Below the pieces are notes generated by a model, which was not told the origin of the DNA, searched no databases, and saw only the letters and a program-made list of their open reading frames with translations. This document shows, piece after piece, positions 23,883 through 29,091 of a stretch of DNA of 64,000 nucleotides. A program made the position numbers and the translations under genes. The stretch spans positions 124,001 through 188,000 of the forward strand of contig NZ_APMP01000002.1 of assembly GCF_000372645.1 (NCBI RefSeq), in the 5' to 3' direction. The first letter of the stretch is position 1. Every line of letters begins with the position of its first letter. Source of the DNA: Caulobacter vibrioides OR37. Its GTDB lineage: Bacteria > Pseudomonadota > Alphaproteobacteria > Caulobacterales > Caulobacteraceae.

Positions 23883-24206
23883 TTTTGACGGAAGAGTCAA
23901 AATTTGAAATCGAGAGGCCAGATACACCAAACCCGCCGCGGGGGATAATCGCGACGGGCTGGCTATTTCTCGATCATTCGATCTAGGCGGGCGTTTCCTC
24001 CCCGAAACGCCGAAGGAAGGGAGCTCTCTGTCGGGCCCGTTTCTTCCTTGCAGGGTCAAGAAACGTCAAATTCGTGACGGTGTCAACGCGTCAAAGCCAG
24101 AATCCGTAACGGGTTGGACGAATTTTTGACGCCCGCGCCGTAGTTTGGACCGAGCAGTCGAATTTACCCCCGAAATCCGGCGTTATTTTTGACCAATCCG
24201 TCAAAA
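23883..24206. repeat. TGAC/GTCA-rich block bounded by two TTTTGAC-N6-GTCAAAA palindromes
   Basis: The 432-bp gap between the convergent Nramp and hisG genes contains a perfect 20-bp palindrome TTTTGAC-N6-GTCAAAA at 23883-23902 and another at 24187-24206, one base from the hisG stop. The two ends are also related as imperfect terminal inverted repeats (TTTTGACGGA on each outer side). Between them are at least five further TTTGACG or CGTCAAA copies at 24056-24130 and an 8-bp hairpin GGCGTTTC/GAAACGCC at 23990-24011. No gene is supported. It could be a regulator-binding array or a MITE-like remnant. Confidence 0.7.
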
Positions 24207-24207
24207 G

Positions 24208-25167
24208 TTAAGGTTCGAGCGTGGCGACGAACTGGTCGAGCACCGCCGAGCGCGACTCGAAAACATAGTCCGGACGCGACACGGTGACGGGCTCGACCCC
24301 GGCGGCGGCCAGGGCGGCGGCCGCGTCGAACAGGTCGCCGGTCGCCAGCAGCACGCCATTGGCCCGACGCGAGCCGCCCTTGGCCACGAAGGCGGCCACG
24401 GCCGCCTGGGCCGCCGCGTCCTGCTCGGCCGGCCAGGCCAGGGTCGCCAGCTTGGCCGCCCGTCCCTTGGCCTCGACCACCGACAACATACGCCGGAGAC
24501 TCTCCAGCTGCTCGGCCGACCAACTGGCGACCCGCGAGGCGGTCAGCTGGGCCTGACTCTTCAGGATCACCCCATCTGAGAGGATCTTCAGCCCGTTGGC
24601 CGCCAGGGTCGCGCCGGTGGTGGTGATGTCGACGACCAGCTCGGCGGCGCCGGCGGCCGGGGCCCCCTCGGTCGCGCCGCTGCTCTCGACGATCCGATAG
24701 TCGGCGATGCCGTGCCGGGCGAAGAAGGCGCGGGTCTGGGTGACGTACTTGGTCGCCACCCGCAGGCGCCGGCCGGTCTTGGCCAGGTGCAGATGCCCGA
24801 CGTCGTCGATGTCGGCCATGGTGTCGACGTCGATCCAGCTCTTGGGCGCGGTCACCACCAGGTCGGCGCGGCCAAAGCCCAGGGCCCGCAGCAGCATGAC
24901 CCGGCTGTCCATGTCGTCGCCGCGCTCGCGCAGCAGGTCCTCGCCGGTGACGCCCAGGTGCAGCTCACCGCTGTCCAGGCCCGCGGCGATGTCGCCGGCC
25001 GACAGCAGGCGCACCGAGACGCCGGGCAGGCCGCCCAGCTCGGCCGAATAGCCGCGCGCCCCGCCGGTCATCTCCAGCTTGAAGCCGCAGCCGGCCAGCC
25101 AGTCCTCGACCTGGTCCTTCAGGCGGCCCTTGGACGGAATGGCGAAGATCATCGGATTGGCGCTCAT
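24208..25167 (-). CDS. hisG: ATP phosphoribosyltransferase, HisZ-dependent context
   Basis: First step of histidine synthesis (ATP plus PRPP to phosphoribosyl-ATP), 319 residues. Catalytic-domain motifs seen: AIPSKGRLKDQVEDWL, SAGDIAAGLDSGELHLGVTGEDLLRE, LGFGRADLVVTAPKSW, ATKYVTQTRAFFARHG, and the PRPP loop ELVVDITTTGATLAANGLKIL. The C-terminal 100 or so residues do not show the PTVSPL-like motif of long-form HisG regulatory domains and end in NGVLLATGDLFDAAAALAAAG. The start overlaps the hisZ stop by one base. Last gene of hisS-hisZ-hisG, controlled by the leader at 27825-27963. Confidence 0.92.
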   Translation of the reverse strand: MSANPMIFAIPSKGRLKDQVEDWLAGCGFKLEMTGGARGYSAELGGLPGVSVRLLSAGDIAAGLDSGELHLGVTGEDLLRERGDDMDSRVMLLRALGFGRADLVVTAPKSWIDVDTMADIDDVGHLHLAKTGRRLRVATKYVTQTRAFFARHGIADYRIVESSGATEGAPAAGAAELVVDITTTGATLAANGLKILSDGVILKSQAQLTASRVASWSAEQLESLRRMLSVVEAKGRAAKLATLAWPAEQDAAAQAAVAAFVAKGGSRRANGVLLATGDLFDAAAALAAAGVEPVTVSRPDYVFESRSAVLDQFVATLEP

Positions 25168-26300
25168 CAGGCTTGCCCCCCGGCATAGGCGCGGGCCGGG
25201 CGGACCATGCAGCCCACGGCGCCCGTCGTCGTCGTCACGCCCAGCCGTCCGGGCAGGCCGTCATAGCGGCCGCCGGCGGCGACCGGGGCCTCGTCGCCCA
25301 GGGCCGCCGAGCGGACCTCGAACAGCAGGCCGTCGTAATAGCCGAACGCCCGGCCGAAGGCGGCGGCCAAGGTGGCCTTTTCCAGCGGAACGCCGCGCGC
25401 GGCCATCCCCGCCAGGCGCGCTCGCCAGCCGGCGACGGCGGCCTTCAGCCCCGCATCGTCCGGACCCGCCAGGGCGACGATGGCGTCCAGCGCCGCCTCC
25501 GGACGATCCGACACGGCCAGGAAGGCGCGGACCTTGTCGGCCTGTTCGGGCGACAGGCGCCCGGCCTCGGCGCTCCGGGCCTTCTCGACCAGGCGGCGGG
25601 CGATCTCGGCCGGGCGGCGGCCGCCGACGGGCTCGATGCCGGCCAGGGACCACAGCTCCTGCAGCATGGCCGACGCCTCGGCCTCGGGCAGGCCGGCCAG
25701 CAGGGCGGCGATCCGCGACTGCTCGGCGGTGGACGACACCCCCTCGCCGTCCAGCTCGGCCTTCAGCTGCCGGGGCTTGGCGAAGGCGCGTTTGAGCCGG
25801 GCGGCCAGCGGCGCGGCCAGCTCCAGGCTGTCGACGAAGGCGGAAAACAGCGACACGTCGCCCAGCACCAGCGACAGGTCCGCGCGCCCGCCCGCCGCCG
25901 AGGCCGCCCAGGCCAGGGCGGCGATCTCGGCGTCGGCGGCCACGGGGTCGCCGGCCTCGAAGGCCTCGACGCCGACCTGCAGGAACTCCTCGGCCCGGTC
26001 GCTGCCGCGCGGCGCGACGCGGAAGGCCTTGCCCTCGTAGAAGCAGCGGCCCGGCTCGCCGGCCCCGTCGGCGAAGTGCTCGCGGGCCACGGCGACGGTG
26101 AAGTCGGGACGTAGGCAGGCCTCCTCGCCGCCATCGCCGGACACCACGAACAGCCGCGACCGCATGGCCTCGCCGGCCAGGTCCAGCAACAGACCCAGGG
26201 GCTGCAGCACCGGCGCGTCGACCGGGGTCGCCCCGGCCGCCAGCAGCGGCGCGCGGATGGCGTCCAGCGCCGCCGCCGGAATGGAACGCTCGAGCCTCAC
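25167..26300 (-). CDS. hisZ: ATP phosphoribosyltransferase regulatory subunit
   Basis: Paralogue of histidyl-tRNA synthetase that lost aminoacylation and serves as regulatory partner of HisG; 377 residues. Seen: a HisRS-like class II core with LRPDFTVAVAREHF (motif 1/2 area), RCFYEGKAFRV and FLQVGVEAFEAGDPVAADAEI, a helical insertion, and the late FGYYDGLLFEVR and AAGGRYDGLPGRLG, which correspond to the HisA region of true synthetases. No anticodon-binding domain. It sits 4 bp after hisS and is joined to hisG. Start ATG at 26300. Confidence 0.88.
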   Translation of the reverse strand: MRLERSIPAAALDAIRAPLLAAGATPVDAPVLQPLGLLLDLAGEAMRSRLFVVSGDGGEEACLRPDFTVAVAREHFADGAGEPGRCFYEGKAFRVAPRGSDRAEEFLQVGVEAFEAGDPVAADAEIAALAWAASAAGGRADLSLVLGDVSLFSAFVDSLELAAPLAARLKRAFAKPRQLKAELDGEGVSSTAEQSRIAALLAGLPEAEASAMLQELWSLAGIEPVGGRRPAEIARRLVEKARSAEAGRLSPEQADKVRAFLAVSDRPEAALDAIVALAGPDDAGLKAAVAGWRARLAGMAARGVPLEKATLAAAFGRAFGYYDGLLFEVRSAALGDEAPVAAGGRYDGLPGRLGVTTTTGAVGCMVRPARAYAGGQA

Positions 26301-26304
26301 GTCA

Positions 26305-27795
26305 TCAGCCCCCGATGATCTTGCGGACGGCGGCGACCAGCTGGTCGCGCGGGATGGTCTGCTGGCCCGGACGCTCGGCCTTCCAGGCGGCGTTGTCGGT
26401 CAGGCCCTCGGCGGCCTGCCGGCCGGCGTCCAGGTCCTTGATGGTCACGGTCCCGGCCGCGATCTCGTCGCCGCCCAGCATGACCACGGCCGGCGCGTTC
26501 CGGCGGTCGGCGTATTTCATCTGCGGCTTCATGCCCGAGGTCCCCAGATACACCTCGGCCGGAATGCCCGCCGCGCGCAGCCGTCCGACGACGGAGAAGT
26601 ACTCCGGCATGTGCGCCTGGTCGAAGGCGATCACCACCACCGGCCCGCGCGCGACGCCGCCCGGCTCGCGGCCCGCCGCCCGCAGCGCCGCCGCCAGGCG
26701 CGACACCCCGAACGAGAAGCCCGTCGCCGGCGTCACCTGCCCCGTGAACCGCGCCACCAGGTCGTCATAGCGCCCGCCGCCGCCGATCGAGCCGAAGGTG
26801 ACCTTGTTCCCCTTCTCGTCGGTGGTGCTGAGCAGCAGCTCGGCCTCGAACACCGCGCCGGTGTAGTATTCCAGCCCCCGGACGATCGACGGATCGATGA
26901 AGGCCTGGTCGTCGGCGATGCCGAGGCTGGTCAGGGCCGCGTCGATCCGCGACAGCTCCAGAAGGCCCTCGTCGCCCTCGGCCGAGCCGGCCACCACGCG
27001 GGCGATATTGTCCAGCGTCGCCGCGCGACCGCCGGACGAGCCGGCCTGCACGAAGTCCAGCACCTGGTCGACCGCCTGCCCTTTGAGGCCCGCGCCCTTG
27101 GTGAAGTCGCCGCTTTCGTCGAGGCGGCCCTCGCCCAGCAAGAGCCGCACGCCGTCGACGCCCAGGCGGTCCAGCTTGTCGACCGCGCGCAGCACGGCCA
27201 GCTTCTGGCCGGCGCTGTCGGCCCCGGCGGCGGTCAGGAGGCCGTTCAGGAGCTTGCGATTGTTGATCTTCAGCACCGCCGCCCCGCGCGGCAGGCCCGC
27301 CGCCTCCAGCCCCTCGACGGCCATGGCGATGATCTCGGCGTCGGCCTCCGGACGGGCCGAGCCCACCGTGTCGGCGTCGCACTGGATGAACTGGCGGAAG
27401 CGCCCCGGCCCCGGCTTCTCGTTGCGCCACACCGGCCCGAAGGCGTAGCGGCGGAAGGGCTTCGGCAGGGTCTCCCAGTTCTGGGCGGCGAAGCGGGCCA
27501 GCGGCGCGGTCAGGTCGTAGCGCAGCGCCATCCACTGGTCGTCATCGTCCTGCAGCGCGAACACGCCCTCGTTGGGCCGGTCGCTGTCGGGCAGGAACTT
27601 GCCCAGCGCGTCGGCATATTCGAACGCCCCGGTGTCCAGCGCCTCGAAGCCGTAGCGCTCATAGACCGCCGACACCGCCTCCAGGATCGCCCGCTCGGCC
27701 CGCAGGTCGCGCGCGCGCTTGTCGGCGAAGCCGCGCGGGCTGCGCGCCTCGGGGCGAAAGTCTTGCGGGGTCGTGTCGTTGGAGTCGGTGGTCAT
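26305..27795 (-). CDS. hisS: Histidyl-tRNA synthetase
   Basis: Charges tRNA-His in the cytoplasm, 496 residues, class II. Motifs: early SPRGFADKRARDLRAE, motif 1 region VYERYGFEALDTGAFEY, LRYDLTAPLARFAA, motif 2 FRRYAFGPVWRNEKPGPGRFRQFIQCD, HisA GLEYYTGAVFEAEL, motif 3 GGGGRYDDLVARF with TGFSFGVSRL, and a C-terminal anticodon-binding domain from about 385 (VVVIAFDQAHM). First structural gene of the his operon here; the 5' leader encodes a His-rich peptide, so this tRNA synthetase is likely regulated together with HisZG by charged tRNA-His. Confidence 0.95.
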   Translation of the reverse strand: MTTDSNDTTPQDFRPEARSPRGFADKRARDLRAERAILEAVSAVYERYGFEALDTGAFEYADALGKFLPDSDRPNEGVFALQDDDDQWMALRYDLTAPLARFAAQNWETLPKPFRRYAFGPVWRNEKPGPGRFRQFIQCDADTVGSARPEADAEIIAMAVEGLEAAGLPRGAAVLKINNRKLLNGLLTAAGADSAGQKLAVLRAVDKLDRLGVDGVRLLLGEGRLDESGDFTKGAGLKGQAVDQVLDFVQAGSSGGRAATLDNIARVVAGSAEGDEGLLELSRIDAALTSLGIADDQAFIDPSIVRGLEYYTGAVFEAELLLSTTDEKGNKVTFGSIGGGGRYDDLVARFTGQVTPATGFSFGVSRLAAALRAAGREPGGVARGPVVVIAFDQAHMPEYFSVVGRLRAAGIPAEVYLGTSGMKPQMKYADRRNAPAVVMLGGDEIAAGTVTIKDLDAGRQAAEGLTDNAAWKAERPGQQTIPRDQLVAAVRKIIGG

Positions 27796-27824
27796 CGTCG
27801 GTCCTAAGGTCTTCTAGGCTTCGA

Positions 27825-27879
27825 CGGATGGCGCTTGAGCCAAGCCCCATCCGCTAGGCGGGGGCTGGCTGGGGGCTTG
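27825..27879 (-). promoter_or_regulatory. Histidine attenuator: two mutually exclusive hairpins
   Basis: Between the leader peptide and hisS. Hairpin A pairs CGGATGG (27825-27831) with CCATCCG (27847-27853) and GCTTG (27833-27837) with CAAGC (27841-27845): 12 base pairs with one C-C mismatch and a 3-base loop (plus-strand letters). Hairpin B pairs CAAGCCCC (27841-27848) with GGGGCTTG (27872-27879). Both need 27841-27848, so only one can form. A ribosome finishing the leader at 27883 would block B and allow A; a ribosome stalled at the His codons leaves B free. A lacks a clear U-run, so termination may be assisted or it may act at translation level. Confidence 0.7.
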
Positions 27880-27882
27880 CTT

Positions 27883-27963
27883 TTAGAGCGAGCGGACCCG
27901 GCCGATCCCGCGAGGCGAGGTCGGATGGTGGTGGTGGCCGTGATGGTGCGGCGTGCGGGTCAT
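27883..27963 (-). CDS. hisL: Histidine operon leader peptide
   Basis: 26-codon frame on the minus strand, ATG at 27963 and TAA at 27883-27885. It begins MTRTP like the enterobacterial his leader (MTRV...), and residues 6-13 read HHHGHHHH: seven His in eight codons. It lies 87 bp upstream of hisS and directly before two competing hairpins, the classical layout of ribosome-mediated attenuation. No good Shine-Dalgarno sequence is seen, so it may be translated leaderless or weakly. Its length, His run and position make chance occurrence very unlikely. Confidence 0.82.
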   Translation of the reverse strand: MTRTPHHHGHHHHPTSPRGIGRVRSL

Positions 27964-28120
27964 TGCGGGGGGCGGTGTAGCGGATTGGGGCGTGTGGGGG
28001 AAGGGGGCGTAGATAACGATCATTGAGGCCTTCGTGGCGCTAGCCCCTTAACAAGAAGGCAACAGAACCCATGTAAGGAAGCGATGTGGACGCTAGTGCG
28101 TTGTTTTGAAGCGACGCCTC

Positions 28121-28232: not shown

Positions 28233-28251
28233 TTCCGTGTATCTGCGAACT

Positions 28252-29091
28252 ATGCTGTTCGCCTATCTCGACGAGTTTGGGCATATTGGCCCATTCGTCC
28301 ATCGCCAAGACCTCCGCTACAAAGATAGCCCGGTTTTCGGCATGGCGGGCATCATCTTGCCCGAACCGTCGATCCGCCCTTTCTCCGCAGGCTTCCTGAG
28401 ACTTAAAGAAGGCGTATTCCGCGCGGATATAGCTCGCGCTGAGCGGATGCCCTTCAACTGGGAGAAGAAGGGGCAGGATATTTTCCGCCCGAAGGCGCTC
28501 GATAAGTATCCCGCACTTAGAGAAGTGGGCTTCCGCCTTCTAAGCCTGATCAGACGCCACGAAGGAAAGGTCTACTTCTATGGTCGGGAAAAGATCGTCG
28601 GCATGACCGACGGCAATCCGACCGGCATGTACACCACGGTCTTCAGCAAGACCATCCGAGGGCTGGACGCACACTCTCATGCCCAGGGTAGCAATTTTGC
28701 TCTCGTAGTGGATGAGCACAGCGCCAGAAAAGAACTACTCGAGTGCGCCGCAAAGACTATGTATGGAGCGCAACCCGCTCGTCGACTAGTCAGCCCTCCG
28801 TTCGAAGTCGAGAGCTATCTCAACCAGCATATACAGGCCGCTGACTGGATTGCGTCTATTGTCGGCCGCATATGGGCCCACCGTACTCAACCTGAGCAGT
28901 TTAAAGATCACGAGATCGTCGACCGATACTTCGGAAATCGGGTTACTGCCTTAGCCACTAATAGTCGCGTCGAGATGCGTCCCAATAAAAAGCGCAGCAT
29001 TGTCATTCCTTCCGTCGCCAACGACACGACGGAACAGACGTCACAGGCGCGCCCAACGTTGCGCTACTCGATTTTGGACAAGCAGCAATAA
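28252..29091 (+). CDS. DUF3800 domain protein, probably acquired
   Basis: 279 residues, no signal peptide or membrane segment. The N-terminus MLFAYLDEFGHIG is the DUF3800 hallmark (strand followed by D-E-x-G), and later NFALVVDEHS and QAADWIASIVGRIWAHR fit the family's acidic and QxADxxA-type positions; the family has an RNase H-like fold and is common on mobile elements and near defence genes. GC content is visibly lower than all neighbours, which suggests transfer. An alternative GTG start at 28237 lies on top of a hairpin. It stands alone. Function unknown. Confidence 0.85.
   Translation: MLFAYLDEFGHIGPFVHRQDLRYKDSPVFGMAGIILPEPSIRPFSAGFLRLKEGVFRADIARAERMPFNWEKKGQDIFRPKALDKYPALREVGFRLLSLIRRHEGKVYFYGREKIVGMTDGNPTGMYTTVFSKTIRGLDAHSHAQGSNFALVVDEHSARKELLECAAKTMYGAQPARRLVSPPFEVESYLNQHIQAADWIASIVGRIWAHRTQPEQFKDHEIVDRYFGNRVTALATNSRVEMRPNKKRSIVIPSVANDTTEQTSQARPTLRYSILDKQQ

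Follow-up and report, generated by a model that had tools for sequence, protein, structure and literature searches.

A predicted histidine-responsive leader with competing RNA helices upstream of hisS-hisZ-hisG in Caulobacter

In the enterobacterial his attenuator (Rfam RF00514, His_leader), a leader peptide carries a run of His and the position of the ribosome on it chooses between helices. Both traits are shared by the region that precedes hisS, hisZ and hisG in Caulobacter vibrioides OR37. Unlike the enterobacterial system, the Caulobacter leader would control hisS-hisZ-hisG, lacks a U-run, has a leader ORF without a Shine-Dalgarno (SD) sequence and is predicted to act on the translation of hisS. 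Membership of RF00514 was tried and dropped, with no match in this genome (0 of 1) or in the window (the whole stretch of 64,000 nucleotides that was analyzed). Attenuators of the ermC type, which sequester the ribosome-binding site (RBS), share with the hisS leader the principle that the position of a ribosome in the leader ORF exposes or hides a downstream RBS. The ermC leader senses a drug, whereas the sensor of the hisS leader would be its His codons and the charging of tRNA. Such RBS-sequestering (translational) leader-peptide attenuators are mentioned in an excerpt of PMC9413887. In bacilli, His leader peptides are described upstream of hisS* and hisZ (excerpts of PMC2965389); the likeness is a His leader peptide ahead of a hisS paralogue or hisZ, and the differences are the phylum and their discovery through a search for premature terminators. 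According to the same excerpts, the leader and non-coding sequences of Firmicutes show no similarity to those of Proteobacteria. An alphaproteobacterial attenuator with transcription beginning at the ATG of its leader, as is predicted for the hisS leader, is trpL of Sinorhizobium meliloti; it differs in responding to Trp and in attenuating transcription, with release of the sRNA rnTrpL (excerpts of PMC7298713). Streptomyces leuS attenuators, themselves predicted, likewise place a leader peptide before an aminoacyl-tRNA synthetase gene but concern Leu and have a terminator followed by poly-U (according to part of PMC1262725).

In the open-licence PMC literature, we found no account of a Caulobacter His leader preceding hisS, and no paper treating CC3513, an sRNA annotated on the opposite strand of the same DNA (Rfam RF01528), together with Caulobacter; the portions of PMC12559287, PMC11005374 and PMC6237742 that were available contained nothing on hisS. 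The component parts are known; their combination and this family of leaders were not found in that literature, and Landt 2008 or Vitreschak 2004 may already mention them. The features of the locus are collected in Table 1. The nearest named relatives of HisS are from Caulobacter species (best 94% identity). Just past hisG and on the same strand lies a match to the Rfam CrfA sRNA (23917-24051, minus strand, 151.7 bits), and a divergent ORF of 284 aa without an NCBIfam match (28237-29091, plus strand) is found upstream of the leader.

Table 1. Features of the hisS leader and of the genes that follow it, in window coordinates
Feature	Position	Strand	Remark
Rfam RF01528 'caulobacter sRNA CC3513' match	27849..28018	+	113.2 bits vs gathering score 40
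-10-like element GCTACACC	27974..27981	-	10 nt before leader ATG
His leader ORF MTRTPHHHGHHHHPTSPRGIGRVRSL	27883..27963	-	26 codons, stop TAA
His codons 6-8 and 10-13 of the regulatory run, where the ribosome is presumed to stall	27925..27948	-	
R1, 3' part of leader ORF, 5' arm of R1:R2	27887..27911	-	
R2, post-stop arm, partner of R1 or R3	27857..27881	-	
R3 CGGATGGGGCTTGGCT, partner of R2 (OFF) or R4 (ON; hairpin A), as predicted	27838..27853	-	
R4 CGCCATCCGTCG, partner of R3 (ON) or hisS start region (OFF), as predicted	27822..27833	-	
R6, hisS Shine-Dalgarno (TTAGGA) and ATG	27793..27807	-	covered by R4 and an inner CCT/AGG stem
hisS, histidine--tRNA ligase	26305..27795	-	NCBIfam TIGR00442 above cut-off
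hisZ, ATP phosphoribosyltransferase regulatory subunit	25167..26300	-	NCBIfam NF008949 above cut-off
hisG, ATP phosphoribosyltransferase	24208..25167	-	NCBIfam TIGR00070 above cut-off

The leader frame, with seven His in eight codons, is present as the first-pass annotation of this DNA had claimed; it is short, conserved, upstream of the operon and co-directional with it. That annotation also likened its MTR start to that of HisL. Enterobacterial HisL does begin with MTR, but the relatives of the Caulobacter leader begin with MTR, MTA, MTQ, MTF, MSG, MFR, MKT and others, so the likeness is probably coincidental. One pattern of His codon runs gave 15 overlapping matches at 9 places of the whole genome, and the hisS leader was the only match within a short ATG-started frame when ATG starts were considered; the others lay in longer frames (the shortest of 44 codons, from stop to stop) or had no ATG ahead of the run. 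With this single codon pattern and ATG starts no second His leader was found in the genome, a search that leaders of another pattern would escape. The frame is more than a chance occurrence, since it is conserved upstream of hisS and a His-rich frame was found in only 1 of 60 opposite-strand controls made in loci of other families. For C. crescentus, a part of PMC4117421 reports a Trp leader ahead of trpS; among the frames with at least two Trp before trpS in the OR37 genome, none was convincing.

To describe the distribution of the leader we read hisS loci from 30 of the 41 genomes of the same family and from 60 of the 156 of other families. The leader was present in 24 of the 30 same-family loci, including all 16 of Caulobacter and those of two further genera (7/7 and 1/1), and absent from two others (0/4 and 0/2). 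Its length varied from 23 to 26 codons across relatives. The His-rich frame is thus kept in close relatives, which disposes of the objection, raised beforehand, that it might not be conserved. In a collection of 80 named loci, 18 carried it, under the titles of Caulobacter, Phenylobacterium or unclassified MAGs, and 54 had no leader (two of these with fewer than 100 bases examined). All 18 leader-bearing loci continued with hisZ and hisG, and the 54 without a leader had hisZ and hisG (26), hisZ only (2) or neither (26) downstream. When 200 genomes of the order were searched with an RNA model built from 38 leader sequences, 31 gave a match at E <= 0.001. Strong matches (E <= 1.2e-15) numbered 24; all adjoin hisS genes and fall in the genus itself (16/16) and in two further genera (7/7 and 1/1), with none among 17 in two other genera of the family; ten weak rows (1.6e-6 to 8.4e-4) lay away from hisS, and the 142 genomes of the class gave two weak matches besides the window. 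Since the search used strict filters and the model contains sequences that it finds, these numbers speak for specificity and are not independent support. An Rfam scan of 12 relatives returned no family at the leaders, including those of the short Hyphomonadaceae type described below.

In all 38 sequences, CTA, TTA or ATA begins 14 to 17 nt before the leader ATG, and none of the 38 has an SD-like motif (AGGA, GGAG, GAGG or AAGG) between -16 and -3 (both are raw counts). Given the position of the -10-like element and the lack of an SD-like motif, the leader ORF looks leaderless or nearly so, with a transcript predicted to start within a few bases of the ATG. A scan for the sigma-70 consensus between 27700 and 28200 found nothing on either strand and decides neither way. 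The loci of Phenylobacterium type L035, L036, L039, L054, L055, L057, L058 and L088 have a second in-frame hisS ATG, 48 to 66 nt downstream, with TTGAG...TAAGC or TAATC ahead of it. This looks like a second leaderless promoter, one that would bypass the attenuator. In L037, L038 and L066, the in-frame hisS ATG lies 135 to 176 nt past the leader stop.

The comparison of relatives suggests four competing helices: R1:R2, R2:R3, R3:R4 and R4 with the hisS start codon. The alignment (A1) comprised 38 sequences, four duplicate leaders having been dropped from 42 beforehand. Pairing was kept in 96.5% of cells for R3:R4, 91.1% for R2:R3, 82.1% and 75.3% for R1:R2, and 100% (2 pairs) and 81.7% (6 pairs) for R4 with the hisS start. 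Folded alone, all 38 sequences form R1:R2 with the stop codon of the leader inside or close to the apical loop, and in the diverged sequences L040/L041 and L042 it is a different sequence near the hisS start that pairs with R4 (both judged by eye). The two hairpins proposed by the first-pass annotation exist at their given coordinates. Hairpin A, which is R3:R4, joins 27853-27841 to 27837-27825 (7 bp, one G-G mismatch, 5 bp); its seven outer pairs are formed in 256 of 266 cells, and a double change from UA to CG occurs in 13 of 38 sequences. Hairpin B, proposed between 27879-27872 and 27848-27841, fared otherwise: 173 of 304 cells are paired and 8 of the 38 sequences keep 7 or more of its 8 pairs, and it is not supported as a competing helix. 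What stands of the earlier reading of the locus is an attenuator with a His leader and exclusive helices before hisS-hisZ-hisG.

The predicted ON pairs (R1:R2 and R3:R4) form in 86.5% of cells, against 41.5 to 52.7% when slid, and the OFF pairs (R2:R3 and R4:R6) in 88.9%, against 30.3 to 49.2%. Double-changed cells numbered 27 (ON) and 10 (OFF), above all 500 shuffles; taken together with the covariation score, nearly all shuffles were exceeded (0, 0 and 4, 0 came as high). Neither the count of double-changed pairs nor that of pair types rose above the shuffles, whether for ON (343 and 489 of 500) or for OFF (97 and 109 of 500), and two slid OFF versions, with 12 and 15 double-changed cells, surpassed OFF itself. 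Because the 38 sequences are related, these covariation counts are not independent events.

No run of more than four T was found from R2 to codon 3 of hisS in the 38 sequences (longest 1 to 4), and the 8 nt after R3 or R4 contained at most 3 T. The pattern of an intrinsic terminator, a GC-rich hairpin followed by a U-run, was not found. The first-pass annotation had noted the missing U-run after hairpin A and had taken it as a hint that the mechanism may differ (Rho or translation); the observation is confirmed and the hint of another output is supported. Hairpin A as a terminator was rejected because no U-run follows it.

To model the effect of ribosome position, the RNA under the ribosome was removed and the energy needed to open the region around the hisS start (-18 to +6) was calculated for 35 of the 38 sequences (L037, L038 and L066 were left out). 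The ribosome was assumed to cover RNA until 12 nt after the first base of the A-site codon, and folding was at equilibrium, which ignores co-transcriptional order. For RNA reaching hisS +10, opening cost 6.25 kcal/mol with the A site on the last His, 11.30 with the A site on the stop codon and 10.31 without a ribosome, and the cost was higher at the stop than at the His stall in 35/35 sequences. The difference of 5.05 changed to -0.51 when the post-stop region was shuffled, 1.27 when R2-R3 was shuffled and 1.67 when R1 was shuffled; 0 of 50 replicates reached 5.05 in each of the three controls, two of which retain a smaller difference of the same sign. A further control with synonymous codons in R1, the only one to use dinucleotide-preserving shuffles, gave a mildly positive result, with 1 of 40 replicates equal to or lower than the observed value; like the runs with R2 covered, it used RNA to hisS +30 and a slightly different definition of the last His. 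Along the leader (RNA to +30), the cost was lowest on the His run (8.6 to 9.7) and rose to 10.4 to 11.2 from two codons later. The difference shrank as more hisS RNA was included, to 3.13, 1.88, 1.11 and 0.74 kcal/mol at +20, +30, +60 and +100, where 1, 7, 9 and 10 of the 35 sequences, respectively, had the reversed sign.

In the window itself, with RNA to 27785, P(R3:R4) was 0.85 with the ribosome stalled at His-13 and 0.00 with it at the stop; P(start codon paired) was 0.00 and 0.85, respectively. The His-stalled state was not clean with RNA to 27765, where P(R2:R3) was 0.86 and P(start codon paired) was 0.55 at His-13 and 0.77 at His-11. The SD stem was paired in both states (P near 1.0), so that it is the start codon that switches in this prediction. 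Within these limits, comparison and folding point to mutually exclusive helices chosen by the position of the ribosome. The model predicts that access to the start site changes most strongly while hisS RNA is just emerging; a fully open RBS is no part of its prediction.

We consider it probable that the region is a His-responsive translational attenuator of hisS-hisZ-hisG. Transcription of the leader would start from a promoter that ends at the leader ATG, and the ORF would be read without an SD. When charged His-tRNA is scarce, the ribosome would stall on His codons 6 to 13, with R1 just past its footprint; R1:R2 would form, then R3:R4, and the hisS start would be free (ON). A stalled ribosome should permit R1:R2, since the distance from the first base of the last His codon to the start of R1 is 16 nt in the window and 12 nt in L035, as counted by hand, and the assumed footprint ends at 12 nt. 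With plentiful charged His-tRNA, the ribosome would reach the stop codon in the apical loop of R1:R2 and melt this hairpin; R2:R3 would then form and the freed R4 would pair across the hisS start codon, lengthening the stem that covers the hisS SD (OFF). HisZ and HisG would follow hisS, possibly with Rho-dependent polarity. We infer a physiologically sensible sign of regulation, in which little charged His-tRNA raises HisS, HisZ and HisG. With an output at translation, the absence of a U-run is expected and is no defect. Such a leader would be a testable amino acid sensor in a model bacterium, with an output probably at translation and a leader ORF without an SD, and it would place a synthetase gene under the same control as the committing enzyme of histidine synthesis.

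Stalling could also act through transcription attenuation, with Rho or a terminator free of a U-run halting transcription within the leader when histidine is plentiful and the RBS helix being secondary. The same leader and helices would fit, untranslated hisS RNA would naturally bring Rho polarity, and an excerpt of PMC4117421 describes a leader attenuator with a rho-independent terminator at ilvBN of Caulobacter. We nevertheless find this explanation unlikely, though worth keeping in view: a U-run is present in 0 of 38 sequences, the scanned stretch of the window has no terminator-like site (a weak argument, as 0.5 would be expected by chance) and the partner conserved for R4 is the hisS start, a pairing that would be superfluous if termination were the only output. 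The first-pass annotation implied a different arrangement, where hairpin A is the OFF state, formed when a terminating ribosome covers the first arm after the stop, and hairpin B is the ON state. A terminating ribosome would indeed cover the 5' arm of hairpin B, and R3:R4 forms (P = 0.90) when a ribosome is modeled over R2. However, covering R2 makes the hisS start more open, not less; when the stop codon is in the A site, the conserved part of R2 (27870-27857) lies outside the ribosome; hairpin A lacks a U-run and is clear of the SD; and hairpin B, poorly kept in the alignment, had a P of 0.00 in the six window folds able to form it. This arrangement is thus most improbable, and the role implied for hairpin A is not supported: since it forms in folding with the ribosome on the His codons, we place it in the ON state of the translational attenuator.

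The remaining alternatives concern the strand. The RF01528 match is antisense to the leader and its promoter, and 17 of 200 genomes in the order contain matches to the family. CC3513 on the plus strand might be the functional RNA, in trans or antisense on the leader, with the His frame as its mere complement, a reading for which the strong Rfam match and its recurrence in the order speak. We compared wobble pairs, since a G-U pair of either strand reads as a C-A mismatch on the other. G-U and A-C cells numbered 37 and 4 in R2:R3, 11 and 1 in R3:R4 and 22 and 8 in R4:R6; the counts of R1:R2 (17 and 14) are uninformative on the strand. The codons, the wobble pairs and the -10-like element thus favor a functional RNA on the hisS strand rather than on that of CC3513, as do the in-frame length changes of the leader, and the silence of the promoter scan on both strands is not decisive here. 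We therefore judge it very unlikely that CC3513 alone is the functional RNA. RF01528 may have its strand wrongly assigned, or an antisense RNA may exist; this calls into question the orientation and the meaning of a family that Rfam curates as an sRNA. Landt 2008 is reportedly the source of CC3513. A rather doubtful possibility is that both strands are used, with a real antisense CC3513 that would pair with the leader RNA and whose transcription would cross the leader promoter, overriding the histidine switch. If true, a translational attenuator with a leaderless ORF and a dedicated antisense RNA would jointly control hisS-hisZ-hisG.

A different, short His leader was found in 8 of the 80 named loci (Hyphomonas, Henriciella and Hyphomonadaceae, with L091 titled otherwise). 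Seven of them continue with hisZ and hisG, and the eighth has hisZ, after which the sequence ends. Four other families of the order contributed 60 loci; one family had the short type in 14 of 20, and the other three had it in 0 of 40 (two of these truncated). Two leader types in sister families make this a case of sensor turnover at one gene. In the alignment of L143-L161 from Hyphomonadaceae (A2), the short leader is MNTTLHHHHHHA and similar, with hairpins of its own, and a segment at its 5' end, ATGAACAC, is complementary to GTGTTCAT after the hairpins; some short leaders show a parallel change to ATGAAAAC/GTTTTCAT. This pairing could hide the start codon of the short leader itself once transcribed. 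The short leader starts about 190 to 310 nt before the HisS match, so its output may differ. In the Hyphomonadaceae loci L090 (3829-3902), L148, L152 and L156, ARAGORN places a tRNA-Gln (TTG) gene between the short leader and hisS, and the leader RNA would run into this tRNA.
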